NCBI GenBank assembly: GCA_024277725.1 | Contig: JAJRUP010000013.1 | Span: 1 to 48,283, forward strand | Direction: 5' to 3' | Length of the DNA stretch: 48,283 nt | Source of the DNA: a bacterium | GTDB lineage: Bacteria; CG2-30-53-67 | In this document: piece after piece, positions 143 through 15,500 of the stretch | How positions within the stretch are numbered: the stretch's first letter is position 1 | How the letters are laid out: each line of letters begins with the position of its first letter | The notes under the pieces: generated by a model | What the model saw: the letters and a program-made list of their open reading frames with translations, nothing else | Told to the model about the DNA's origin: nothing | Databases searched by the model: none | Position numbers and translations under genes: made by a program

Positions 143-548
143 TTTTGAAGAGCAAAAGATGTGCCAAGGATCGTCTCGTCTTGCAGACGACGGCATCGGA
201 AGATGTAACACCTTGATTTTCTGCAGGATTCATGAGTATTCCTCCCGCTTGTATTCGGGGTGGGAAATGACCGGGAAAAGTGTCCGGTTTTCATACAGCC
301 CGTGCGAAAGGGAGATGCGAAATGACCCGATCTTATTGAAAACATGAAAGATCAGGCTTTGATCTCAAAATCGGTCACTGTCCGGATTCCGGTCATCCCG
401 AACAAAGAAGGGAGAATAACAAAAACCCTTTGAAAATCAGTGGATTGAAATATTTTCTCCAGGAAATCCCAAATGGCATAACCGTTGCATTCAGCCGATA
501 TGTGACCGGTATTTTTCTGCAACCTGATCGTTGAAAATGGAGGCGATT
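143..548. other. Non-coding stretch upstream of the cytochrome gene
   Basis: Only short reading frames without credible ribosome binding sites or recognisable products occur here on either strand. No RNA gene is evident. It presumably contains the promoter of the cytochrome gene, but I see no clear hexamer pair with good spacing. Confidence 0.5.
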
Positions 549-1718
549 GTGCTTTCCGTAGCCCGGCTTTCGATATTCTTTTTCCTCGTCTTCCTCTTCC
601 GGGCGGAAAAGTGTAGTGGAGAAGATATGCCTTCCGGGGATCCGGCTTATCAATATGTCTTTATTCCGGCCGAGATCTGCGCCGAATGTCATCCGAAGAT
701 CTATGCCATGTGGAAAGAATCGATGCATGCCCATTCCGTGGATGATCCGATCTTTGAGACCTCTTATGCACTGGCCTATCTCGCCGCCGGTGAAAAGGCG
801 AAGAAACTCTGTTTGAGGTGCCATGCCCCGACGACCCTGCAGACCCGTGATTATGAGAAGCGTTTGCCGATTACTGCCGAAGGAGTCACCTGCGACTTCT
901 GTCATTCCGTGCGCAGTGTGGATCTTGGGGACCCTGAGGATCCTTTTTTTATGAATCTGGAGATGCTCAAAGGAACCGACTGGCGGCGGGGGCGTTCCTT
1001 TCATGACCGCCGGATTCCCGATTCTCTCCGGCAATCCGAATTCTGTGCCGCCTGCCATGAGTATACCGCCGAAAACGGAGTAACCCTCCTTGGGACTTAT
1101 TCGGAGTGGAAGGCGGGTCCCTTATCCCGGAACAATACCCCATGCCAGGGATGTCACATGGCATCCGTAAAAGGCGCTCCCCGGGATCACCGGATGGTCC
1201 GACTCGGCAAAGGAATTGCCGCGGATATGACCTCCGGTGGGGCGGTGAATCTCCGGGAGTCGCCGGGAGATCTGCAGGTTCGGGTGGAACAAGTGGATCG
1301 CGACGGCGGCAACTTGACCGTCCGGGTCGGGATCCGTAATGCCGGAAGCGGACATCGTATCCCGACAGGGATACCCTCCCGGAGCCTGACACTGATCTGT
1401 GAGGTTCAATCGATCGCCCAGGGCGGCATCCTGACCCGGTCGAAGGTCTTTCGCAAACACCTGGTGGATGATGAAAGCGGGGAAGAGTTTGCCGATGATG
1501 CCGGGCTCTTTTTAAAACCGGCACGGATTCTTGATGATAACCGGCTGTTGCCGGGCGAAAGCCGGACGGCGGAGTTCAAGTTCCTTGTCGCACCCGAGGA
1601 GGAACTGCTGGTCAAGGCCTATGTCAATTATCTTTACCAACCGGTCCTGCTGCAGAAAACCGAGATGGTCATCCACGGGAGCGGGGACGAGAAAAGAGTC
1701 GGTGCCGTACGGAATTAA
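549..1718 (+). CDS. Five-haem c-type cytochrome (cytochrome c554-like family)
   Basis: This is a predicted exported electron-transfer protein of 389 residues. A hydrophobic signal peptide covers about residues 1-22. Five CXXCH haem motifs follow at about 44-48, 88-92, 115-119, 166-170 and 199-203. The spacing and the EGVTCDFCH segment resemble the multihaem cytochrome c554/c-prime family. The last 170 residues lack haem motifs and look like a beta-rich domain. I chose GTG 549 because a GGAGG (539-543) sits five bases before it and the signal peptide then starts cleanly. TTG 531 and ATG 537 in the same frame are alternatives. The gene is 20 bases upstream of a small membrane protein, which may anchor it or pass it electrons; that partnership is inferred. 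The redox partner and substrate cannot be read from sequence. Confidence 0.85.
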   Translation: MLSVARLSIFFFLVFLFRAEKCSGEDMPSGDPAYQYVFIPAEICAECHPKIYAMWKESMHAHSVDDPIFETSYALAYLAAGEKAKKLCLRCHAPTTLQTRDYEKRLPITAEGVTCDFCHSVRSVDLGDPEDPFFMNLEMLKGTDWRRGRSFHDRRIPDSLRQSEFCAACHEYTAENGVTLLGTYSEWKAGPLSRNNTPCQGCHMASVKGAPRDHRMVRLGKGIAADMTSGGAVNLRESPGDLQVRVEQVDRDGGNLTVRVGIRNAGSGHRIPTGIPSRSLTLICEVQSIAQGGILTRSKVFRKHLVDDESGEEFADDAGLFLKPARILDDNRLLPGESRTAEFKFLVAPEEELLVKAYVNYLYQPVLLQKTEMVIHGSGDEKRVGAVRN

Positions 1719-1738
1719 CCGGACAGGAGGGAATCGCC

Positions 1739-2044
1739 ATGGAAAATGTCCCACGTAAATCCGCACTCTTCGTGCAAATCGCAATGGTTTTCTGTTTTAA
1801 TCTCTTTATCCTGAGTTTTTTCGGGTGGTTTTTCTACCTGATCTACAGTGCGCATCAACTCAACGAATCGACCGGACCGGGCAGCGGGATTGCCTTTGTC
1901 GCAATCCCGATTGTAGCCATTCTTCTCTGGGTTGTGAATTATACCTCCTGTGGTTTGCTGACCGATGAGACCGCCCGAATTTTCGGGCGTGGCAGTGGTC
2001 GAGAACAGGAGGAGAGCGGGCATCCGGTGGAGTTTTCCGGTTAA
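1739..2044 (+). CDS. Small two-helix membrane protein, unknown function
   Basis: The 101-residue product has two long hydrophobic segments, at about residues 9-36 and 51-72, joined by a short polar loop, and a charged C-terminal tail. No catalytic motif or haem site is visible and I do not recognise the family. AGGAGG lies about eight bases before ATG. The gene starts 20 bases after the five-haem cytochrome and is probably co-transcribed with it, so an electron-transfer or anchoring role is possible but unproven. A short palindrome (CGCCCGAA/TTCGGGCG) occurs inside the coding sequence near 1973-1990. Confidence 0.75.
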   Translation: MENVPRKSALFVQIAMVFCFNLFILSFFGWFFYLIYSAHQLNESTGPGSGIAFVAIPIVAILLWVVNYTSCGLLTDETARIFGRGSGREQEESGHPVEFSG

Positions 2045-2174
2045 AAGAGGGACACGATGATGCCCCCGGTCCTGTACCCGGCAGAGGGGCGAACCCGAAA
2101 AAAATATCCTCCCCGCACCCTTGGGGAGATTCCGGATGATGTAACGTCCCGTCATGGACGGACAGGAGGAGATT

Positions 2175-2651
2175 ATGGCGACGGCAGATGAACTTTTGGG
2201 GAACAAGCTCTTTCGGGATATTTCAGCACTGAACCTGGAGAAGGTCCTGTTGATTGCAGAGGAGGTGACTTTTGCGCCCGGTACACGGATCTTCCGCGAA
2301 GGGGAGCAAGCGGGCGCCCTTTACGTGATCCTTGAGGGGATCCTGGATCTTACTTTCCAATTCAAGATCGGTGAGGTGGAAAGTGAACTGACCCTTGACT
2401 CGAAAGGAAAAGGGGAATCGGTGGGTTGGTCGGCGCTGGTCCCGCCGCACCGGTATACCCTGACGGGGGTCTGCCGGAAATCGGTAAAGGCTCTTTCCAT
2501 GGACGGCGATTATCTCCTCAATATTTGCCGGGATGACCGGAACTTCGGATTTCTCCTCATGCGGAACATCGCCGGAATCGTGGGAACACGGATGAAACAG
2601 CTTCAGACGATGTTTATTCAGGAAGTCCAGCGAGGAATCAATATGCCCTGA
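2175..2651 (+). CDS. Stand-alone cyclic-nucleotide-binding domain protein
   Basis: The 158-residue protein is essentially one cNMP-binding beta-barrel of the CRP/FNR effector type followed by a C-terminal helix. It begins with a typical 'F..L' lead-in. The phosphate-binding-cassette region has GESVG followed by PPHRYTLT, where the Glu and Arg match ligand-contacting positions of the family. There is no DNA-binding helix-turn-helix, so it is not a transcription factor by itself. It probably senses a nucleotide and acts on a partner protein. AGGAGG sits about five bases before ATG 2175; an in-frame ATG at 2154 lacks a binding site. It lies between the cytochrome pair and the DsrE2 gene. Confidence 0.8.
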   Translation: MATADELLGNKLFRDISALNLEKVLLIAEEVTFAPGTRIFREGEQAGALYVILEGILDLTFQFKIGEVESELTLDSKGKGESVGWSALVPPHRYTLTGVCRKSVKALSMDGDYLLNICRDDRNFGFLLMRNIAGIVGTRMKQLQTMFIQEVQRGINMP

Positions 2652-2875
2652 ATCATGCGTCATTTTTTTCTTTCCTTTTTGTTTTCTTTCTGGTAAGTTA
2701 ATCGCCTCATAGTATCTTTTGCATCTTCGATTCACCTTGGCCGACAAGGGACTGAGTCCATGGAGGCGGTCATGGGGGGATCGAACGTCAAAGGGGGGTA
2801 CCGCAGGCCGTCATGGCCGGGGGAAATCTTAACCGTAGGCGAACGATGAACGTTCGACCTAAAGGAGGAGAGTGT

Positions 2876-3379
2876 ATGGGTACAAAGATGACAATCATTG
2901 CAACAAAAGGGACGCTTGATTGGGCCTATCCGCCTTTTATCCTCGGTTCTACTGCCGCATCACTCGATTTTGATGTGACCATTTTCTTCACCTTTTACGG
3001 ACTCACTCTGCTGAAAAAAGAGATTACGGCGCAAGTCAGTCCTCTCGGAAATCCGGCCATGCCGATGAAGATGCCCATGGGGCCCAAGTGGTTCCGGAAT
3101 ATCAACTGGAACATCCCCAATATTATCCAGGCCAATATCCCCGGCTATGAAACCGTTGCCACGGCGCTCATGAAAAAGACGATCGCCAATGTCGGTGTTG
3201 CCTCCATTGAGGAACTGAGAAGCCTCTGTCTGGATGCCGGTGTAAAAATGATGGCCTGTCAGATGACGGTCGATCTTTTCGGTTTTGAACAAAGCGAGTT
3301 TATCGACGGTATCAAGTTTGTCGGCGCGGCTTCCTATCTTGATGTTGCGAGTGAATCGCAGATCAATCTCTTTACGTAA
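2876..3379 (+). CDS. DsrE2-like (DsrE/DsrF/DrsH-like) protein
   Basis: The 167-residue protein matches the DsrE2 family across its length. It has an N-terminal ATKGTLDWAYPP strand-loop, an FFTFYGL segment, a Pro/Met-rich stretch around residues 58-70, and a C-terminal DAGVKMMACQM motif with Cys118 and Cys128. Family members often accompany TusA- and rhodanese-type sulfur carriers in sulfur oxidisers and are thought to handle persulfide sulfur. No TusA or rhodanese gene is seen here. An AAAGGAGG precedes ATG 2876; an extension to 2813 is unlikely. The 220-base leader contains an 8-bp inverted repeat (2781-2788/2850-2857), possibly regulatory. Confidence 0.85.
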   Translation: MGTKMTIIATKGTLDWAYPPFILGSTAASLDFDVTIFFTFYGLTLLKKEITAQVSPLGNPAMPMKMPMGPKWFRNINWNIPNIIQANIPGYETVATALMKKTIANVGVASIEELRSLCLDAGVKMMACQMTVDLFGFEQSEFIDGIKFVGAASYLDVASESQINLFT

Positions 3380-3739: not shown

Positions 3740-3820
3740 TTCAAGCAGTTTAAACCGTTCAACCGGCTCAAACCGTTTAGAGCGCTTGAACTGCTTAAAC
3801 AGTTTGAACGTTTTAAACGA
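3740..3820. repeat. Array of nine degenerate 9-bp repeats
   Basis: Nine consecutive nonamers can be laid end to end from 3740, including TTCAAGCAG, TTTAAACCG, TTCAACCGG, CTCAAACCG, CTTGAACTG, CTTAAACAG, TTTGAACGT and TTTAAACGA. The consensus is close to YTYRAACNG, and each unit is nearly self-complementary around TTTAAA. The array lies exactly where DUF4242 (+) and the GGT-like gene (-) converge, and the GGT stop codon falls in the last unit. It could fold from either strand and act as a bidirectional 3' end; that role is inferred. Confidence 0.85.
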
Positions 3821-5417
3821 CGATTGCCACACCGCCCCTGCGGTGGTCTCCGGCCCCCGCCATCCTGTCTGAACCCGGCATCCGGGTTACGGCATGGACC
3901 CCTCCGAAGAAGAGATTGGTTTCTTTCCAGCGAATCCGTTTTGCAGGATCGCAGAGGTGGGCGGCAATCTGCGCCTCGATCCCCGGCTCCTGGTTCAGCA
4001 CTCCCTGCTCCCAGTGAATCCGCGGGGCATTTACGACCTCCCGGATCTCCATCTTAAAATCGATCAGGTTGACAATCGACTGGACGATGGCGGAACGGAT
4101 CCGGTTGCTTCCGCCGCTTCCGAGGACCGCCACCGGGTCCGCACCCTGCAGGATGATGGTGGGGGCCATCATGGACGATACCCGTCGGCCCGGTGCGTGT
4201 TGATGAAACCCGCCGGGGTTCAGGTCTTCTTCTCCGAGCATGTTGTTCAGCATGATGCCGGTGTCGGGGAGAAAGATCCCCGATCCCTCACCGTTCGATG
4301 CCGTCATGGAAGCGGCGTTCCCGAATGGATCCAGAATGCTGATGTGGGTGGTGCTGGAACTGCCGCCGGAAAGATCCATTTCCTCCGGGTGGGGGCTTTC
4401 TCCCTTCAACAGGCGGTGGAGCTGCCGCCTGTATTTTGCGATCCTTTTCGGCAAGAGAAACTCCGGAAACTCCTCCGGCCGATCTTCCGGAAGCCTCTGC
4501 CAGGATTCCCGGACGGCATTGGTGATCTGCATGGCACCGATGAGGGCATTGAGAACGGAGGCACACTGCCGGGCGTCTGCTGAAAGATTGATGTCCTCGA
4601 GGAGCTTCAGGCAGAGTGCGATCAAGGCACCTCCTGTCGAGGGCGGTGGATTGGTGAGGATCCTGTAACCCCGGTATTCAAATACCAGAGGGGAGCGGAT
4701 CCTGACCTGATAGGACCGGAGGTCTTCTCCGGTGAGGAGAAAGCCGTCATCGGAGCATGCCGTCAGTAGTTTTTCCGCAAGCGCACCTTCATAAAAAAGG
4801 GTAGGGCCCTCACGGGAAAGGGCCTCCAGTGTATCTGCAAAGTCCGGGAGGATCAGAAGGTCCCCCTCCTGCAACAATTTCCCACGGGGTGCAAAATAGC
4901 TTTTTCCCGGGTGGGTGAGCGTGAGAATCGGTTCGAGGAGAGCGATAAAATAGGCCTGGTGCAGGTTGATCACAATCCCTTGACGTGCGAGTTGTATCGC
5001 CGGTTGCAGCACATCTTCCAGGGGGAGGATGCCGTAGCGACGATGGGCTTCAAAGAGGCCGGCGATGCTGCCCGGGACGGCAACCGAAGCGGGACCGACG
5101 TGAAATTCCTGATGGGTTGTGCCGAAATTGACATTGACGGGAAAAAAATCTTTTTTCGTGGGACGATGGGGATTGCCGAGGCCGGGCATGTTGACGAAGA
5201 AGTCGAAGAGGCGTGCCTCATGACGTTCCCTGAAATAGAGGTTCAAAAAACCGCCGCCGCCTGCTGAGGTCAATGTCAGTTCCGCCAGGAAAGAGGTAAA
5301 GGCGGCGGCGACAACGGCGTCGACGGCATTTCCCCCTTGTCGCAGGATTTCGGCTCCGGTCTGTGCCGTCGCTTCGTGGCCGGCGGCAATGACTCCTTTG
5401 GCATGATGCCCCTTCAA
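3813..5417 (-). CDS. Gamma-glutamyltransferase-like Ntn-hydrolase, cytoplasmic
   Basis: The 534-residue protein has the full GGT architecture. A large-subunit region carries GHEATAQTGAEILRQGGNAVDAVVA, shown here only by its position (about 13-37). Self-cleavage is predicted before Thr356 in the SSSTTHIS motif, and GSGGSNRI in the small subunit forms part of the active site. The family cleaves or transfers gamma-glutamyl groups from glutathione-like amides. There is no signal peptide, whereas classical GGTs are periplasmic, so the substrate is probably intracellular. The start is TTG, overlapping the M20 stop as TTGA with GAGG upstream, which indicates translational coupling. It is the third gene of the ligase-amidohydrolase-GGT operon. 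Substrate identity is unknown. Confidence 0.88.
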   Translation of the reverse strand: MKGHHAKGVIAAGHEATAQTGAEILRQGGNAVDAVVAAAFTSFLAELTLTSAGGGGFLNLYFRERHEARLFDFFVNMPGLGNPHRPTKKDFFPVNVNFGTTHQEFHVGPASVAVPGSIAGLFEAHRRYGILPLEDVLQPAIQLARQGIVINLHQAYFIALLEPILTLTHPGKSYFAPRGKLLQEGDLLILPDFADTLEALSREGPTLFYEGALAEKLLTACSDDGFLLTGEDLRSYQVRIRSPLVFEYRGYRILTNPPPSTGGALIALCLKLLEDINLSADARQCASVLNALIGAMQITNAVRESWQRLPEDRPEEFPEFLLPKRIAKYRRQLHRLLKGESPHPEEMDLSGGSSSTTHISILDPFGNAASMTASNGEGSGIFLPDTGIMLNNMLGEEDLNPGGFHQHAPGRRVSSMMAPTIILQGADPVAVLGSGGSNRIRSAIVQSIVNLIDFKMEIREVVNAPRIHWEQGVLNQEPGIEAQIAAHLCDPAKRIRWKETNLFFGGVHAVTRMPGSDRMAGAGDHRRGGVAIVV

Positions 5418-6625
5418 AGACCGTTTTCCTCCAGATCGTGGGTTTGGAGCAGCCGGATGACGGCCCAGCAGAGTACTTTCACCGCTTCCGGGATGGCCGC
5501 CTCATCCACGTCGAAAAGATTGCTGTGCAGGTAATGACGGGTATCCTTGGCGGGGTTCCCCGTGCCGATCCGGAAGTACGTTCCGGGAACTTTTTCAATA
5601 TAGGAAGAGAAGTCTTCGCCGCCGAGGGAGGGCTCCTGGAGGGAGACGACCCGGTCGTCGCCGAGGATCTCCACAGCGCTTTGCTCCAGGATGCGGGTGA
5701 TGACGGGATGATTGTTCAGCGGCGGAGAGCCCCGGTCGATATTCAGGCGGTAGCGTCCTCCCATCCCCTCCGTAATGCCCCGGACCTTTTTTTCGATCTG
5801 TTCCATGATCAGGTCCCGGGTTTTGTTGAAGGTTGCCCGGATTGTTCCGCGCAACTCCACGTGATCACAGATGACGTTTTCGGCGGATCCTCCCCGGATC
5901 ATCCCGATCGAAACCACCGCCGGATGGACCGGGTCGATCCGGCTGCTCACGATCAGGTGCAGGGCATGGATGACCATGGCGGCGATCGAGATGGCATCGA
6001 CGGCGAGATGCGGTTTGGCGGCGTGGCCGGTTTTTCCATAAATATGAATCGAGAAGAGATCCGCCGAGGCCATCATTACCCCCTCCTTGAGTCCGATAAC
6101 ACCTGTGGGAAGAAGAGGGAAGCTGTGAAAACCGAGCATCACGGAGACGGGGGGATTCTCCAGGACACCGGCCCGGATCATCCGGTCGGCCCCCAGGACC
6201 CGCTCTTCGCAGGGTTGAAAGATGAACTTGACATTCCCCTTCAGTTTGTCGCGATACTGCGAAAGGACTTGGGCCGCACCGATGAGAGTGGCCATATGAA
6301 GGTCATGGCCGCAGGCATGCATGACGCCGGGGACCTTGGAACAATAGGAGGTCTCTTTCATGTCCTGGATCGGCAGGGCATCCATGTCGGCCCGGATCCC
6401 GATGGTGCGTCCAGGTCCGACACCGCGCAAAAGCGCCGTAACACCGGTCATGGCAATGCCGGCTTCCACCTCAAGGTTCATCTCACAAAGGCGGTCGCGA
6501 AGCAGCGCAGCCGTCCGGACCTCTTTGTTCCCAAGTTCGGGATGCTGATGAAAGTGTCTTCGAAGTGCGACCAGTTCCTCCTGGATGGCATGGACCTTTT
6601 CTTTGATGTCTTCGACGTCGATCAT
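5414..6625 (-). CDS. M20-family amidohydrolase (N-acyl amino acid / hippurate hydrolase type)
   Basis: The 403-residue zinc-dependent amidohydrolase has RRHFHQHPELG near residue 22, a metal-binding HACGHD at about 103-108, the catalytic/metal Glu pair in FQPCEE at about 137-141, and a dimerisation domain with GKTGHAAKPH. The subfamily removes acyl groups from amino acids or hydrolyses amino-acid conjugates. The length is normal and no signal peptide is present. It starts within the stop codon of the GCS2 gene (ATGA) and overlaps the GGT-like gene at its other end, so the three proteins are made together. Acting on a gamma-glutamyl or N-acyl conjugate of the neighbouring enzymes is an inference. 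Confidence 0.9.
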   Translation of the reverse strand: MIDVEDIKEKVHAIQEELVALRRHFHQHPELGNKEVRTAALLRDRLCEMNLEVEAGIAMTGVTALLRGVGPGRTIGIRADMDALPIQDMKETSYCSKVPGVMHACGHDLHMATLIGAAQVLSQYRDKLKGNVKFIFQPCEERVLGADRMIRAGVLENPPVSVMLGFHSFPLLPTGVIGLKEGVMMASADLFSIHIYGKTGHAAKPHLAVDAISIAAMVIHALHLIVSSRIDPVHPAVVSIGMIRGGSAENVICDHVELRGTIRATFNKTRDLIMEQIEKKVRGITEGMGGRYRLNIDRGSPPLNNHPVITRILEQSAVEILGDDRVVSLQEPSLGGEDFSSYIEKVPGTYFRIGTGNPAKDTRHYLHSNLFDVDEAAIPEAVKVLCWAVIRLLQTHDLEENGL

Positions 6626-7734
6626 GGCTTCATTTTCTCCATCAGGTCATCGACGACCGCAAGGAGGCTGCCGGTTTTTTCAAAGACCCGGAGTTGATGA
6701 TGGGCGCTGGTTCCCTGTGAGAAAATCCGGTCGACCTGTTCCAGATAGGGGAGAGTCCCCAGTGTGCCGGCTGTGTCGTTCAGACGGGTCAGGAGGTTTT
6801 TCACGGCCCGGCGGATGGGGATTGTCCGGTGGGTCGTATAATCGATAAAATAGCCGTCGAGACCGTGTCGTGCCGCCTGCCACCGGTTTTCCTCCACCAG
6901 CTGGCGCAGTGGAATCCCGGGGAGTTCCTTCCGGTCGTAGAGCCTGCAGAGCCAGACGACGAGGGTCTGGATCAACGCCGTCAGGATCAGCATGTCCTCC
7001 ACCGTTGAGGGAGAGTCACAAACACGCACCTCAACCGTGCCGAAGGTCGGATGGGGTCGTGCCTCCCACCAGATCTCCCGGGTGCTCTCGATCGTCCGGG
7101 TGGAAATGAGAATTTCTACGAGTTTCTCAAATTCCACCCAGTTTTTGATCCGGGGCGGCAGACCCGCCGTTGGAAGGACTTCAAAGATGTTGATCCGGGA
7201 AGAGTACAAACCGGTGTTGTATCCGCACCAGAAGGGGGAACTGGTCGAAAGGGCCAACAGATGGGGCAGATACCCTCGCAGGATGTTGAGAGTTGCCGTT
7301 GTCTTGTCTCCGTCGCTGATCCCGATGTGCACATGAAAGCCGCAGATGTTCAGGCGCCGTCCCAAAATCTGGAACTCTTTTTGCAAACGCTGGTACCGTG
7401 GGTCGGGCGTGACAATCTGATTCTTCCAGGAGGAAGAAGGATGCGTGGAGGCGCACAGGAGGCCCAGCCCCTGTTCTTCTGCGATCTTGTGGGTCAGGGC
7501 AAACAATTCCCGGAGATTGTCCTCAACCTCTTTCGGGTTGTGACAGATGCGGGTGTTGACCTCCAGGGTGGATTGAGTAAACTCCGGTTTGATCCGTTCA
7601 TGGAGGGACGGAGGAACCCGCTCAAGGATATCGAAAATTCTTGAGGCAAGATGGCGTGTCTTTCGATCCACAATCTGCATTTCCACTTCAACGCCGATGG
7701 TGGGTCCCTCTGAGCCGTTGAATGGAAGGGCCAT
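6622..7734 (-). CDS. Carboxylate-amine ligase, GCS2 family (YbdK-like)
   Basis: The 370-residue protein belongs to the glutamate-cysteine ligase family 2. Visible signatures are IGVEVEMQIVD at the N terminus, PEFTQSTLEVNT near residue 50, ICGFHVHIGI, and a C-terminal FGTVEVRVCDSPST. Members form an amide between glutamate (or another carboxylate) and an amine using ATP. E. coli YbdK has only weak glutamate-cysteine ligase activity, so the true product is uncertain. I prefer ATG 7734, with AAAGG upstream, over GTG 7740. It is the first gene of the operon with the M20 and GGT-like genes, preceded by a promoter and a small ATCCCC/GGGGAT hairpin near 7769-7783. Confidence 0.87.
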   Translation of the reverse strand: MALPFNGSEGPTIGVEVEMQIVDRKTRHLASRIFDILERVPPSLHERIKPEFTQSTLEVNTRICHNPKEVEDNLRELFALTHKIAEEQGLGLLCASTHPSSSWKNQIVTPDPRYQRLQKEFQILGRRLNICGFHVHIGISDGDKTTATLNILRGYLPHLLALSTSSPFWCGYNTGLYSSRINIFEVLPTAGLPPRIKNWVEFEKLVEILISTRTIESTREIWWEARPHPTFGTVEVRVCDSPSTVEDMLILTALIQTLVVWLCRLYDRKELPGIPLRQLVEENRWQAARHGLDGYFIDYTTHRTIPIRRAVKNLLTRLNDTAGTLGTLPYLEQVDRIFSQGTSAHHQLRVFEKTGSLLAVVDDLMEKMKP

Positions 7735-7811
7735 TTGCACCTTTTGGATTGACGAGAATCCCCTTCGGGGATGCGCATGCTTCCAATGAAGTCCCGCAAC
7801 GATTTTCTTTT

Positions 7812-7840
7812 ATACTATCGAATGTTCCGGCGGAATTCAA
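7812..7840 (-). promoter_or_regulatory. Sigma70-like promoter for the GCS2-M20-GGT operon
   Basis: Read on the minus strand: TTGAAT (7840-7835), 17 bases, TAGTAT (7817-7812). It lies about 80 bases upstream of the GCS2 start and back-to-back with the promoter of the SerA-like gene. Confidence 0.55.
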
Positions 7841-7904: not shown

Positions 7905-7932
7905 TTGACATTCGGTATTCGAACTGTATATA
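7905..7932 (+). promoter_or_regulatory. Sigma70-like promoter for the SerA-like gene
   Basis: TTGACA (7905-7910), a 16-base spacer and TATATA (7927-7932) lie 32 bases before the ATG at 7964. A 230-base region holds both divergent promoters, so common control of the two units is possible. Confidence 0.6.
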
Positions 7933-7963
7933 TGAGGAAGAAAACAATCGGAAAGGAGTTGCG

Positions 7964-9562
7964 ATGAAAATTCTGGTAGCTGCAGCCCTCGATCCGGCAG
8001 GTCTCGCCTTGCTGAAGGGTGTGGCACACGTCGAGGTTTTACCGTCTCCGGAGTGTACAACGGAAAAATTACGGCGGAAGATTGTGGAGGTCGAGGCACT
8101 GATCGCCGGCACCCGGACCCCCGTGAGCCGTGAAGTGATTGCGGCAGGAGATCGGCTTCGGGTGATCGGCCTGTTAGGGGTCGGCCGCCCGGCTCTCGAC
8201 GTGGAGGCCGCCACACGGAAAGGGGTGCTGGTTCTCCATGCACCGGGCAGTGTGACCGTCTCTGTTGCGGAGCATGCACTGGCATTGATCTTTGCGCTGG
8301 CCCGGAAGACGACGATGGCCGATGCGATCATGAAAAAGGGGAGTTGGGACCGGCAACCGTTGAAGGGACGGGAACTCCGGAAGAAGGTACTCGGGGTGAT
8401 CGGCTTCGGGGCCGTCGGTTCTCTGGTGGCGGCACGCGCCGCCGGACTGGAAATGGAGGTGGTCGTCTGCGATCCCTATCTGGCTGCCGACACGATCCGG
8501 CGGCAGGGGTTCCGGCCGGTTTTGCTGCCGGAGTTGCTGGAGTCCGCTGATGTGATCACGCTCCATGTCCCGCTCAATGTCGAAACGAGAGGGTTGAGCG
8601 GAAAGGAGGCGCTCTCCCGGATGAAGCGCGGAGTATTGCTGGTGAACTGTTCCGCCTCGGAGGTTGTCGATGAAACCGCCCTCTACGATCTTCTGATCAA
8701 GGGGCAGGTGCAAGGTTTTGCGCTTGATCTTCACCGGAAGGAACCATTGGAAGAGCATCCGCTCTATCTTTCCGACCGGGTGATTTGCACTCCCGAACTT
8801 TCCGCCTATACGGAAGAAGCCCTCAGCGGCGGATCGATGGAGATATCGAACTCCGTTATCGATTACCTGAAACGGGGGATCATTTCCCACGCCGTTAACC
8901 TGCCCGGCGGAGAACGGACAGGCGCTCCGGGGGATGTCCTCTGGCTTGACCTGGGCGAAGCGCTGGGACAGTTCGTCAGTCAGCTCCACCCCTACGGAAT
9001 CCAGGAGGTGATCGTTGAATGCGCCGGGGAAGATGGACTGCCGGGTATCTCTGCGTTGACCCAGGCAATCCTGGCGGGACTTTTGCATCCCGTCGTCGGG
9101 GACCGGGTCAATCGTGTCAATGCCCGAAGCCTTGCCGAAGAAAGAGGAATCCGGATTTCCGAAATGCGGAAAAGTACCAGCCCGAATTACCGGAAACTGG
9201 TGACGGTAAGGGTGAAAACCGATCCGGAGGAAGGAGAAGTCTCCGGCACCCTCTTGGATGATCGTATTCCCCGGATTGTCCGGATCGACGGATTCGATCT
9301 GGAGGCCGTACCCGACGGGGATTTTCTCGTCATCTTCAACCGGGACCGGCCCGGTGTGATCGCCGATGTCGGGGAAGCGCTGGGTCGGCACGGAATCAAT
9401 ATCGCCCAGATGTACAACGGCCGGGATGCGGTGGGCGGAAAGGCGATTACCCTGCTGTGTGTGGATGCAACGGTTTCCGGGGAGACGCTTAATGAGATCC
9501 GGGCATTTCCGAATATTCTGACGGCGTTGCATGTGAATCTGCAGGGCGCCGTCTCCCGGTAA
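7964..9562 (+). CDS. SerA-like protein (D-3-phosphoglycerate dehydrogenase fold) lacking catalytic Arg and His
   Basis: The 532-residue protein has the complete layout of long-form PGDH: catalytic and Rossmann domains (about 1-310), intervening domain (about 320-450) and C-terminal ACT domain (about 454-525). NAD-site features persist: GFGAVG (147-152) and Asp170. Active-site positions do not. The usual NCARGG motif is NCSASE (Arg to Ala231). The usual TPHLGAST is TPELSAYT (His to Glu278). The N-terminal RAGVGVDN is LLGVGRPA, and the GNT substrate loop is SVT. Only Glu260 of the triad remains. I infer it is not a working PGDH; it may be a ligand sensor, since the ACT domain retains NRDRPGVIADVG and INIAQM. 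AAAGGAG precedes ATG. The 3' end overlaps the convergent gene by 74 bases. A sequencing error is unlikely because the reading frame is intact. Confidence 0.85.
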   Translation: MKILVAAALDPAGLALLKGVAHVEVLPSPECTTEKLRRKIVEVEALIAGTRTPVSREVIAAGDRLRVIGLLGVGRPALDVEAATRKGVLVLHAPGSVTVSVAEHALALIFALARKTTMADAIMKKGSWDRQPLKGRELRKKVLGVIGFGAVGSLVAARAAGLEMEVVVCDPYLAADTIRRQGFRPVLLPELLESADVITLHVPLNVETRGLSGKEALSRMKRGVLLVNCSASEVVDETALYDLLIKGQVQGFALDLHRKEPLEEHPLYLSDRVICTPELSAYTEEALSGGSMEISNSVIDYLKRGIISHAVNLPGGERTGAPGDVLWLDLGEALGQFVSQLHPYGIQEVIVECAGEDGLPGISALTQAILAGLLHPVVGDRVNRVNARSLAEERGIRISEMRKSTSPNYRKLVTVRVKTDPEEGEVSGTLLDDRIPRIVRIDGFDLEAVPDGDFLVIFNRDRPGVIADVGEALGRHGINIAQMYNGRDAVGGKAITLLCVDATVSGETLNEIRAFPNILTALHVNLQGAVSR

Positions 9563-11822
9563 AGCCTCGGAGAAATTGCAGGACCTCCCGGTGGACGGCG
9601 GAACCCTTCTCCAGGATGATGACATGCCGGTCCGTATCCACCATGACCAGCTTCTTTTCCTGTGATGCGATCCCTTCGTAGATCATCTTCGCGCTGACGG
9701 AATCGACCGTCGGGTCCTCTTTTCCCTGGATGATCAAGGCAGGGCAATAGACTTCCGGCAGTACTTCTTCCGTCCTCTCCATGGTATGCTGGAATTCCTT
9801 GAGGGCGCTGATCGGAATATTCTGGTAGTTGATCTCCGGATTTTCCGGATCGCCCCGTGTGAAACGCTTGATACCGTCGAGGTAGGGCAGGACACTGACT
9901 AACTGATTGATTCGGTGGACGAGACCGGCGAAGAAGATGTTCTTGTCGCGGATCTTCAGCGGCGTAGAGATCGTAACGAGACCGTCTACTACGTTTCCCT
10001 TTTCTTCCGCCAGCATGAGCGCCAGATTCCCTCCCATGGAAAAGCCGATAACCACGACCTTCTCACAGACCTTGCGCAGGACATCCCACCCCCGAAGGGT
10101 GGAACGGTACCATTGGCTCAGGGTTCGAAAATCAAGATCACAGGGGGAAGTCCCGTGTCCTTTCAGGCGGACGCCGTAAACCCCGAAGCCCTGTGACGAG
10201 AGAAATTCACCGAGGGGACGTATCTCGGCAGGGGATGCCGTAAATCCGTGGATCAACAGGATCCCGACATCCTGCGAGCTGTGATCGGCGGGGGGGAAGA
10301 AGAAAGGGGCGCCGGAGAAGGTTTTCGTTTCCTGCCGGTTGATCTCGTCATATTTCGCCGCACAGAAGATGTCTCGGTCTCTTTCGTAACTGCGCAGGTC
10401 ATCGTCATAGAGCATTGCCGCACAGGATCGGGGTTGGTTGAGCTTGTCGAAATGGGTCAGCACCTCCCGGATGGCTTTCCGAATGGCCGGGATGGGCCGC
10501 ACTTCGTTATAGCGAACCTTCAGGAAGTTTTTGATCCGGATTTCATCAAAATCGTATTCTTCCCCCAGGGCCGGGAGAAAGAAGTAACGGTCTTCCCGGA
10601 TCCGGATCAGGCCGACGGCGGCCGCCTGCAGAAGGATGTCCCGGATGTCCCGATTGTTGTGGGAGAGCAGGGAGTCGTAGCGATCCGGGTTCAACAGACT
10701 GCGGTGCAGAAAAACCTGTTCCGATTTCTGGACCTTCTTGATCGTCATATAGAGCGCCTGGTCGAAGAAGTCCCGGGAGACTTCCCGCTGCTTGTAATGT
10801 TGGAGCAGCTCAAAGATCAGTTCCGCACAAAGGTGCCCGATGTTCACGGTAATAAGGGAATAGATCGATTGCATGTAATCGACCATGATCCGTTCGGAAA
10901 GGATCTCCGATCGGATCATCTCCATCCGTGTCAGCAGTCGGGAGGAGGCACTCTTGAGAATACGTCTTTTCTCAACAAAGTACCGTGTGCGCAGCAACGA
11001 GACATCGGTTCGTTTGAAGTAGTCCGGGATCTCGATCGGCTTTCCCAGGCGGATGTCCATATCCGTATCCTTGAAAAGGATATTCCCCTCGATGATCAGT
11101 TCCTCTTCCATCCGTTCATTGGTGATCTTTCCGAGGCGTTCCGCCACCTTGATCAGAAAGTTTTCATCGCCCCGCAGAGGGTAGAAGGTGATATTGGCCG
11201 GTACGATCCGAACGGGTTCGGAGGCGATCTCCAGTGCCCGGTCGATATCCTCGGCATGGAGCATGGCTGCGATCTCGTTCATCTTCTGATCGTTTTTCCG
11301 TTCATAGGCCAGACGGAAGAGATCCCGGATCTGTTGGGCATAGAGGGCGATCACGGCGGCGCCGGTATGGGGTTTTCGGTATTTCCCTTTTTCACGGGAA
11401 TAGATGCGAAAGCGTCCTTTCGGCCCCAGAACCCGGCGGTTCTTGATCATCGCCCCTTCCGGGAAGATCACCGCCTTGTATCCCCGGTTGATCTCGCAGG
11501 CCATGAAATGGATGACATTCTCCAGGTCGGTCGGGATGGCACCGATCCCTGCCAGGTAATGTCCGAAGGCACCATCGTTGAAAAGTTCCGGTGCCGCCAG
11601 TGAGCGGCACATGATCCCCGTGTGGTCATAGATCAGATATTGGGGGATAAAGGTCTCGAAACGGGCGAAGTGATTGAAGAGGAAGATATCCCCTTGCCGG
11701 AACTGATCTTCCAGATTGTGAAGCTTGATATTGACCTTCAGGAACCGGCGCAGGATGTCGAGAACCAGCCGCGTCTTCTTGTAACTCTTTTCATTGATGA
11801 TGAGGTCTTTCTCCGACACCAT
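9489..11822 (-). CDS. PlsC-like acyltransferase fused to an alpha/beta hydrolase
   Basis: This is a 777-residue two-enzyme fusion. Residues 1-270 carry a glycerolipid acyltransferase domain, with motif I NHFARFE (50-56) and FPEG (120-123). A helical middle region (about 280-510) has no family I recognise. Residues 515-755 form an alpha/beta hydrolase of the monoacylglycerol-lipase/esterase type: oxyanion HGF (525-527), nucleophile GFSMGG (Ser595), acid Asp703 or Asp707, and His733 in DRH. One polypeptide therefore seems able both to add and to remove acyl chains, plausibly in phospholipid remodelling at the inner membrane. No transmembrane segment is obvious. GAGGAG precedes ATG 11822. The last 25 residues are low-complexity and overlap the convergent SerA-like gene. 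Confidence 0.85.
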   Translation of the reverse strand: MVSEKDLIINEKSYKKTRLVLDILRRFLKVNIKLHNLEDQFRQGDIFLFNHFARFETFIPQYLIYDHTGIMCRSLAAPELFNDGAFGHYLAGIGAIPTDLENVIHFMACEINRGYKAVIFPEGAMIKNRRVLGPKGRFRIYSREKGKYRKPHTGAAVIALYAQQIRDLFRLAYERKNDQKMNEIAAMLHAEDIDRALEIASEPVRIVPANITFYPLRGDENFLIKVAERLGKITNERMEEELIIEGNILFKDTDMDIRLGKPIEIPDYFKRTDVSLLRTRYFVEKRRILKSASSRLLTRMEMIRSEILSERIMVDYMQSIYSLITVNIGHLCAELIFELLQHYKQREVSRDFFDQALYMTIKKVQKSEQVFLHRSLLNPDRYDSLLSHNNRDIRDILLQAAAVGLIRIREDRYFFLPALGEEYDFDEIRIKNFLKVRYNEVRPIPAIRKAIREVLTHFDKLNQPRSCAAMLYDDDLRSYERDRDIFCAAKYDEINRQETKTFSGAPFFFPPADHSSQDVGILLIHGFTASPAEIRPLGEFLSSQGFGVYGVRLKGHGTSPCDLDFRTLSQWYRSTLRGWDVLRKVCEKVVVIGFSMGGNLALMLAEEKGNVVDGLVTISTPLKIRDKNIFFAGLVHRINQLVSVLPYLDGIKRFTRGDPENPEINYQNIPISALKEFQHTMERTEEVLPEVYCPALIIQGKEDPTVDSVSAKMIYEGIASQEKKLVMVDTDRHVIILEKGSAVHREVLQFLRGFTGRRRPADSHATPSEYSEMPGSH

Positions 11823-12980: not shown

Positions 12981-15500
12981 GTGCCGCCGATGATCAACGG
13001 TAAGGAAAGTCGCAAAAAGAGCAAAACCCTCTCCGATCGGATCCGGCTCCGGTGGGAAACGTTCCGTAAATTTTTGCAGAACGGTTTCCGGATTGAGGGG
13101 GTTCCCTTTTACCAAGCCCCCCGGTTTCTGAAGGCGCTCCTGATTTGCAGCGTCGTGGTTGCCCTCAGTTTTCTCCTCCTGCCCGATATCGAGTTTGTTT
13201 CCTCCCGGTATCAGATCGGCTCCATCAGTCCGAAAAACATCAAGGCACCGCAGGACCTGGATGTTCCGGATCTGAAAGCGACCGAAGAGAAACGCCGACA
13301 GGTCATGGAAGACACCTTGTCGGTTTATGATTTTGATCTGGTCATCGTAACGCGATTGGGTAAGGAAATCCAGGACGCTTTCACGCTGATGAATCGCTAT
13401 TACGTGGGAAAACGTCTCCGGGCTGAAAACCAGGGGCTGGAGAAGGAGGTGGTCCGGGAACGACAGGGCACTCCCCCGGCCGAAGGAGAAGAACCGCCGC
13501 GTACGGAGAAGGAATTGCTGGAAGAGGGACATCGGAAGTTTGAGGAGATCCTGCAAATCAAGCTGCCCAAAAAGACGATGCAGGTCCTCGACCGGGAAGA
13601 GTTCTCTTCCGACCTTGCCGCGGCGGTCAATCTCCTGGTGAAGATGGTGATGAACCGCGGTGTGGTCAGCAGTCCCGATCTGCTCCTCAAAGAGGCGGAT
13701 AAAGGGATCGTGATTAAGGGGATCGGTGAGGACTTCGAGAAAAAGATCTCCGATATCAACGTCTTCCTGGACTTGAAATCGGCCCGCAAAAGTATTGCCG
13801 AATATTCCGATCCTTTTTTCGCGTCCCTTCCCCGCGATACGGCAAAGGCCGTCAGAGAGGTCGCCTCTCTTCTGATCGTTCCCAACCTGACCTTTAACAA
13901 GAACGAAACGGAACTGCGCAAGGCCCGGGAACGGGATGCCGTCAAGACGGTCTACTTCAAGATCCAGAAGGGGGAGATGATCGTCCGGGAAGGGGAGCGG
14001 ATTACGGAACACCATATGGTGAAACTCAATGCGCTCAATGCGACGCAAAAAGAGAGCAATCTAGTTCAGACCTTCTTCGGGCTTGTCTTCTTTAACGCCA
14101 TCCTTCTCGGAATCTTCCTGATCTATATCAACCGTTTCAAACAGCCGATCTCGCAGGACCTGCAGAAACTGACTCTCCTCGGCCTGATTATTGTCGGTTC
14201 CCTGGGGTTGATCAAGGCCTTTTACTGGGTTGCGCAGATTGTGATGGCGAACCTGGAATTCGTGGAACCCTCATCCATCCTTCTCGGGATTCCCTTCGCC
14301 TTCTGCGGCATGATGATCGGTGTCCTCTTCGAAATCCGGATCTTCATCTTTCCGATCCTCATGATCAGTATTCTCTCGGGAATGATGATCCATGAAGACC
14401 TTTCTTTTACTCTCTACGCCTTGGTCGGCAATGTGATTGCCGCATTGACGGTGCAGAACTGCCGACGGCGGAGCGCTCTGCTGCGGGGCGGAATGATCGT
14501 GGGGGGGACGAACATTCTGACGGCATTGTCGATCTCTATTCTCCACAACGATTTGAGTTTGGCCCGGGGGGTGGATGATGCCGTCTTTGCCTTTTTCGGC
14601 GGTCTCCTCGTTTCCGTCCTGGTCTCCTGGCTTGTCCCGCTGCTGGAAAGTCTCTTCAAGATCACAACGGATATCCGTCTGCTGGAACTTTCCGACACCA
14701 ATCAGCGCGTTCTCAAGGATCTCCTCGTCCATGCACCGGGGACTTATCAGCATTCTCTGATGGTCGGGAACCTGGCCGAGGAGGCGGCCGAAGCGGTGGG
14801 AGCGAATCCGCTCCTGACCCGGGTCAGTTCGCTCTACCATGATATCGGCAAGATTCAAAAGGCGGAGTATTTCGTGGAGAACCAGATCAATCTGGAAAAC
14901 CGTCACGACAAATTAACGCCGAGCATGAGTGCCCTGATCCTGATCTCTCACATCAAGGATGGTGTGGAACTGGCAAGGGAGAACAAGCTCCCGCCGGCGA
15001 TCCTCGATATCATTCGTCAGCATCACGGAACGAGTCTGATTACCTTTTTCTTTCAAAAGGCCAAGGACCGGGAGAATCCTTCCATCCATGCCGTCAAGGA
15101 GGAGGACTTCCGTTATCCCGGTCCCAAACCGCAGACGAAGGAGGCGGCGATCGTCATGATTACCGATGCCGTCGAGGCGGCCTCCCGGGTCCTTGCCGGT
15201 CCCAATCCGTCCCGGATTGAGGGGATGGTGAACAAGATCCTGGAGCGGATCTACATTGACGGTCAGCTCGATGAATGCGACCTGACCCTGAAGGATCTCC
15301 GGAAGATCAAACGGAGCCTGCTGCCGATCCTGACGAGCATCCATCATCACAGGATCGATTATCCTTCCGTAAAGTTGACGGACGAAAATGGGGGAAGCCG
15401 CAAGGATGAAAATCCAGCTCAATCGGCAGGGGTCGATGCCAAAGGATCCCGGGGAACTGGCGACATCGGTCTTGAAAAAAGTCTTCGAAATCGTCCGTAA
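12981..15500 (+). CDS. 7TM-HD family protein (PgpH-like c-di-AMP phosphodiesterase candidate)
   Basis: The 839-residue membrane protein has one N-terminal helix (about 48-68) and an extracytoplasmic region to about 365 (7TMR-HDED). About seven membrane segments follow to roughly residue 560, then a cytoplasmic HD domain with YQHSLMVGN, SLYHDIGK and RQHHGTS metal-ligand motifs. Firmicute PgpH proteins with this layout hydrolyse c-di-AMP; activity here is inferred. GTG 12981 directly follows the phoH stop, with GGAAGAG as binding site; ATG 12990 is possible. The charged last 40 residues run 95 bases into ybeY in another frame and are probably dispensable. The position between phoH and ybeY is the common arrangement for this family. 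Confidence 0.9.
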   Translation: MPPMINGKESRKKSKTLSDRIRLRWETFRKFLQNGFRIEGVPFYQAPRFLKALLICSVVVALSFLLLPDIEFVSSRYQIGSISPKNIKAPQDLDVPDLKATEEKRRQVMEDTLSVYDFDLVIVTRLGKEIQDAFTLMNRYYVGKRLRAENQGLEKEVVRERQGTPPAEGEEPPRTEKELLEEGHRKFEEILQIKLPKKTMQVLDREEFSSDLAAAVNLLVKMVMNRGVVSSPDLLLKEADKGIVIKGIGEDFEKKISDINVFLDLKSARKSIAEYSDPFFASLPRDTAKAVREVASLLIVPNLTFNKNETELRKARERDAVKTVYFKIQKGEMIVREGERITEHHMVKLNALNATQKESNLVQTFFGLVFFNAILLGIFLIYINRFKQPISQDLQKLTLLGLIIVGSLGLIKAFYWVAQIVMANLEFVEPSSILLGIPFAFCGMMIGVLFEIRIFIFPILMISILSGMMIHEDLSFTLYALVGNVIAALTVQNCRRRSALLRGGMIVGGTNILTALSISILHNDLSLARGVDDAVFAFFGGLLVSVLVSWLVPLLESLFKITTDIRLLELSDTNQRVLKDLLVHAPGTYQHSLMVGNLAEEAAEAVGANPLLTRVSSLYHDIGKIQKAEYFVENQINLENRHDKLTPSMSALILISHIKDGVELARENKLPPAILDIIRQHHGTSLITFFFQKAKDRENPSIHAVKEEDFRYPGPKPQTKEAAIVMITDAVEAASRVLAGPNPSRIEGMVNKILERIYIDGQLDECDLTLKDLRKIKRSLLPILTSIHHHRIDYPSVKLTDENGGSRKDENPAQSAGVDAKGSRGTGDIGLEKSLRNRP

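Follow-up and report, generated by a model that had tools for sequence, protein, structure and literature searches.

What does a bacterium keep a phosphoglycerate dehydrogenase (PGDH) for once the residues that carry out its chemistry have gone? This question is raised by a gene in a 48,283-nucleotide stretch of bacterial DNA, here called the window (contig JAJRUP010000013.1 of assembly GCA_024277725.1). An uninterrupted frame of 532 codons on the plus strand, at 7964-9562, encodes a SerA-like protein of 532 amino acids (P0001), referred to below as pseudo-SerA. Pfam profiles identify in it 2-Hacid_dh, 2-Hacid_dh_C, PGDH_inter (ASB) and ACT, so that the substrate, NAD, ASB and ACT domains of a type I SerA are all present and in order. 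P0001 also scores above the threshold of the NCBIfam PGDH equivalog model TIGR01327 (494.8 bits; cut-off 454), and its closest solved relative by sequence is the PGDH of Mycobacterium tuberculosis. No DNA-binding or output domain was found in pseudo-SerA. The gene and its domains are as follows.

7964-9562, plus strand: pseudo-SerA, type I PGDH-like, with R231A and H278E and the phosphate-binding residues gone (open reading frame, profiles, alignment, structure model)
8276-8797, plus strand: NAD-binding domain, residues about 105-278; GxGxxG (147-152) and D170 present, Arg and His of the triad gone
8942-9286, plus strand: ASB or PGDH intervening domain, residues about 327-441; seven of seven positions conserved in canonical enzymes present
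9326-9511, plus strand: ACT domain, residues about 455-516; N459-x-D461 and N479 present

The predicted fold agrees with this architecture. An AlphaFold2 model of P0001, built from an alignment of 16 sequences (mean pLDDT 85.6, pTM 0.73), superposes on M. tuberculosis PGDH (1ygy_A) with a TM score of 0.90 (528 columns, 2.8 A). Against the human PHGDH structure containing NADH and 3-PGA (6cwa), the target-normalised TM score is 0.96 (300 columns, 1.5 A).

In the 2HADH enzymes, Arg, Glu and His form the catalytic triad, the Arg being the most conserved active-site residue and essential to orient the substrate; the Arg-Ser motif, which binds phosphate, is invariant in SERA, and the change of the catalytic His with which activity is retained is to Lys, in SerA type IIIK (PMC6303947). 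Residues of P0001, whose numbering is used throughout, were compared with those of 41 ordinary full-length type I SerAs from the fetched genomes. P0001 has Ala in place of R231 and Glu in place of H278, and it retains E260; of the N-terminal substrate residues, R49 is changed to G, S50 to T, R70 to L, D76 to P, N77 to A and N97 to V. The gene had first been described in a sequence-only reading as an open frame of 532 codons for a full-length SerA paralogue that has lost the catalytic Arg and His and the N-terminal substrate Arg and Asn while keeping its NAD fold and ACT domain. All of this stands: the frame was called again at the same place, four domains and TIGR01327 were recovered, a separate canonical serA occurs in relatives, the alignment places the substitutions where they had been claimed (among them R49G, S50T, R70L, N77A and N97V), and GxGxxG, D170 and the ACT residues D461 and N479 are present.

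Three further copies are encoded in related genomes with shared synteny, at 78% identity in a genome of the same genus as the window's own assembly (G000), here G001, and at 57% and 55% in two MAGs of a sister genus, G003 and G005. Arg231 and His278 are gone from all four copies, and the loss of the active site is a clade-wide property of the gene lineage. In the four members, position 231 is A/T/A/A, position 278 is E/A/D/D and position 260 is E/E/P/R; Arg49 is replaced by G/G/A/E, the R49-S50 pair reads GT/GT/AA/EI, and R70 is Leu in all. None has the Arg-Glu-His triad of a PGDH, or the variant with Lys for His known from type IIIK, and every one lacks both the Arg-Ser motif that binds phosphate and the type I Arg of beta4-alpha4. 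Glu260 had been singled out as the one catalytic residue to remain, which is true of P0001 and not of the clade: the sister genus has Pro or Arg there, only the genus of the window keeps the Glu, and its status as a conserved catalytic remnant was rejected.

The losses are not spread evenly. Among 83 positions that are at least 95% identical in the 41 ordinary enzymes, all four paralogues keep the canonical residue at 54 and all four lack it at 18; the latter cluster mostly round the active site and include R49, S50, R70, A71, D76, N77, N97, A230, R231, G232, H278 and G280. The conserved ASB positions are all kept (7/7, with 0/7 lost in all four paralogues), as are 10 of the 12 in the ACT domain, where one is lost in all four. 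Each paralogue retains the Rossmann signature, with G147, G149 and G152 and the acidic D170 after beta-B. In the ACT domain, N459, D461 and N479 are the counterparts of Tyr461, Asp463 and Asn481, which bind serine in M. tuberculosis PGDH (PMC6300728), and a canonical SerA from the family of pseudo-SerA has the same N/D/N. In addition, the paralogues all agree on R75, P76, S230, E233 and H257, where most canonical enzymes have another residue; these newly fixed pocket positions could serve a new ligand or a new chemistry. With the His that acts as base and acid, the Arg that polarises the substrate and the Arg residues that bind phosphate all lost, the PGDH reaction should be impossible, and we infer that pseudo-SerA is without PGDH activity.

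How widespread is such a protein? Across 386 genomes, and outside the family, nothing exceeded 44% identity among matches at E <= 1e-115, and a contig search returned only the two sister-genus copies and ordinary relatives, among them a Mariprofundales MAG SerA. All copies seen belong to a single candidate phylum, very probably GTDB CG2-30-53-67, which has been described with mixed dsr genes (PMC11406059). No paper on a bacterial SerA pseudoenzyme was found in the open-licence literature. In the tree the four paralogues are split from the family's canonical SerA and from all other SerAs with a support of 100/100 and on a stem of 1.1-1.2; a joint clade with the family's canonical SerA gave a borderline result (p-AU 0.048) on this long branch. 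In genus g2 of the family, the contig of G004 stops at the 3' end of the acyltransferase gene that adjoins pseudo-serA elsewhere, where pseudo-serA would start, and in G002 neither this acyltransferase nor GCS2 was found. In the G005 copy (L041:6416-7927), 26 codons are missing in frame between LFD and NRDRPG, which takes out the ASB-ACT linker and the first ACT strand (26 residues, at the ACT start); the gap ends share the 5-base repeat AACCG, and the gap reflects either a genuine deletion or a collapse in the assembly.

The neighbourhood of the gene is conserved as well.

3813-5417, minus strand: gamma-glutamyltransferase (GGT) of the GCS2 operon (profiles; not seen here in the G001 stretch)
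5414-6625, minus strand: M20 amidohydrolase/peptidase of the GCS2 operon (profiles, synteny)
6622-7740, minus strand: GCS2/YbdK-type glutamate-cysteine (carboxylate-amine) ligase, divergent neighbour (profiles, synteny)
7811-7819, minus strand: TATACTATC (GATAGTATA on the minus strand), invariant in four intergenic regions
7905-7932, plus strand: promoter-like TTGACA-N16-TATATA, below the threshold of a strict scan
7952-7958, plus strand: ribosome binding site AAAGGAG (sequence)
9489-11822, minus strand: acyltransferase-alpha/beta-hydrolase fusion, convergent neighbour, overlapping the 3' end of pseudo-serA by 74 bp

In all four genomes pseudo-serA is divergent from GCS2-M20 and convergent with the acyltransferase-hydrolase fusion, and GGT follows GCS2-M20 in G000, G003 and G005. 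Within the family, GCS2 was found in exactly the four genomes with pseudo-serA and not in G002 or G004, the G004 contig breaking off where both would start. A further genome, G006, has GCS2-M20 without pseudo-serA, so that the pairing is not obligatory. Glutathione synthetase-type genes are present in all eight genomes of the phylum. The fusion protein of 777 amino acids occurs in seven of these eight; its overlap with pseudo-serA (9489-9562) is absent from G003, and antisense to its gene runs a 451-residue frame (10248-11603, plus strand) without a family match, probably a shadow ORF. A multihaem cytochrome, a cyclic-nucleotide-binding regulator and a DsrE-like protein (531-3379) adjoin the GGT operon. 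There were no Rfam matches near pseudo-serA.

The sequence-only reading had credited the gene with a good promoter and a good ribosome binding site. The latter is borne out by AAAGGAG, 5 nt before the ATG. For the former, TTGACA stands at -59 with TATATA 16 nt later, and the orthologues of all three relatives are likewise preceded by one TTGACA each, but the strict scan upstream of pseudo-serA returned no promoter, and the element is plausible only. TATACTATC stands nearer to GCS2 than to pseudo-serA and is possibly the -10 element of the divergent GCS2 operon.

Two readings were rejected. One takes the gene for a duplicate in decay; in its favour, the gene evolves at roughly twice the rate of the canonical copy in the same pair of genomes (dN/dS by Nei-Gojobori of 0.128 against 0.067, G003-G005), and one copy of the four has an internal deletion of 26 residues. 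However, dN/dS is 0.13-0.20 for the whole gene (0.19 for G000-G001), 0.10-0.24 by domain and therefore far below 1 in each, and about 0.09-0.13 in neighbouring genes. Within the pairs G000-G001 and G003-G005, the three regions of the gene span 0.10 to 0.23. Four open frames persist across two genera at 55-57% identity, with the upstream TTGACA and the synteny retained. The gene is thus under selection and not decaying; dN/dS leads us to reject this very improbable reading. Alternatively, pseudo-SerA might be the organism's real and sole SerA with a divergent active site, no other PGDH-like gene having been found in the assembly of the window. A second, canonical serA, proposed early on as a check, is present in addition to pseudo-serA in the genomes G001, G003 and G005, whereas a search of the whole G000 assembly found no second PGDH. 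In G001 canonical serA is preceded by a class V aminotransferase and followed by purA. In G000, the gene of this aminotransferase is cut by the end of contig C124, at base 13285; the downstream neighbour priA lies on a separate contig (C7), and purA (PF00709) is missing from the entire assembly. As purA is a core gene of the purine pathway, its absence is most simply put down to an assembly gap, which most likely holds the canonical serA of G000 too. With this break, the missing purA and both serA genes in a genome of the same genus, the sole-SerA reading was rejected as extremely improbable. The G000 assembly is rated 99.4% complete, yet the break removes canonical serA and purA.

Clade-wide loss of catalytic residues together with purifying selection is one mark of a pseudoenzyme, and it is seen here. 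We consider pseudo-SerA to be, rather probably, a pseudoenzyme paralogue of type I PGDH that is kept as a regulator responsive to NAD(H) and amino acids. From an ACT sensor conserved while the chemistry was lost, the sequence-only reading had proposed a repurposed sensor of serine or another ligand. The ACT domain is kept and the catalytic residues are gone, and such a sensor is one candidate role, but ACT does not stand out from the rest of the protein in its preservation. The scaffold of the catalytic domain and the ASB domain are comparably constrained, so that a picture in which only the sensor is conserved is too narrow. Selection maintains a four-domain, ACT-bearing protein that probably binds NAD(H). 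Such a protein most likely forms assemblies, of its own kind or mixed with canonical SerA, across the usual nucleotide-binding, ASB and ACT interfaces. Its conformation may respond to an amino acid at the ACT interface, to NAD(H) in the Rossmann cleft, or to both; this response would in turn regulate a partner, either canonical SerA or the divergently encoded gamma-glutamyl/glutathione-type enzymes. NAD(H) and amino-acid binding, oligomerisation, regulatory output and the identity of ligand and partner are all predicted. The full version, in which a two-input sensor (NADH/NAD and an ACT-bound amino acid) couples serine/cysteine supply to the adjacent glutathione-type metabolism, either through mixed assemblies with canonical SerA or through control of the GCS2-operon enzymes, we regard as unlikely in its entirety.

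A specific form of the regulator reading is a HisZ-like subunit in obligate co-assembly with canonical SerA, conferring serine sensitivity or stabilising the tetramer. In all three relatives pseudo-SerA coexists with a canonical SerA built on the same architecture, and the conserved positions of ASB and ACT, the subunit contact regions of type I, are kept in pseudo-SerA. The two genes are nevertheless unlinked, canonical serA lying with the aminotransferase and purA; canonical SerA has a complete ACT and ASB of its own and no obvious need for a regulatory subunit, and pseudo-SerA is just 38% identical to it, which leaves this form rather unlikely. A different course would be that pseudo-SerA is still an enzyme, with another reaction or substrate served by relocated residues, for example R75, E233 or H257. 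The retained NAD motif and the five invariant positions R75, P76, S230, E233 and H257, which set the paralogues apart from the canonical majority, speak in its favour. CtBP proteins have a His at the position equivalent to H257 that is not known to act as the catalytic base, which speaks against relocation. The old catalytic positions vary freely, with no alternative triad conserved there. A swap of His for Lys can leave type IIIK SerA active (PMC6303947), but none of the four members has Lys at this position, and the triad Arg, essential for substrate orientation (PMC6303947), is lost from all of them. Continued catalysis of this kind is therefore quite unlikely.

If pseudo-SerA is a regulator, it would offer a bacterial case in which the widespread 2-hydroxyacid dehydrogenase fold was kept for sensing after its chemistry was lost, with the ordinary SerA of the same genomes as a natural control. 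The case also matters for annotation: at 494.8 bits against 454, pipelines would confidently call the gene serA, and in G000 a pathway call would rest on a sole 'SerA' that is very probably unable to perform the reaction.

Compared with known systems, pseudo-SerA resembles type I PGDH (SerA/PHGDH; M. tuberculosis 1ygy and 3dc2) in domain order, fold (TM 0.90), NAD motif, the Asp and Asn of the ACT domain and the TIGR01327 match. Unlike these enzymes, it has neither the catalytic Arg nor the His, the Glu is gone in two of four members, and the phosphate-binding Arg-Ser, Arg70, Asn97 and other residues are missing. With CtBP1/2 it shares an NAD(H)-binding 2-hydroxyacid dehydrogenase fold in regulatory use, which is established for CtBP and proposed for pseudo-SerA; CtBPs have a known transcriptional output. 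ANGUSTIFOLIA, the plant CtBP homologue, is eukaryotic, belongs to the CtBP branch and not to SerA, and has no ASB or ACT domain. It is nonetheless, like pseudo-SerA, a relative of the 2-hydroxyacid dehydrogenases without the catalytic residues (PMC6303947). CtBPs, unlike pseudo-SerA, keep the Arg-Glu-His triad (see also PMC6303947). Finally, SerA type IIIK and 2HADH subfamily X4 offer natural parallels, with the catalytic His substituted and the Glu lost (PMC6303947); unlike pseudo-SerA, type IIIK keeps its Arg and is active with Lys, and type III enzymes are built without the ASB and ACT domains.
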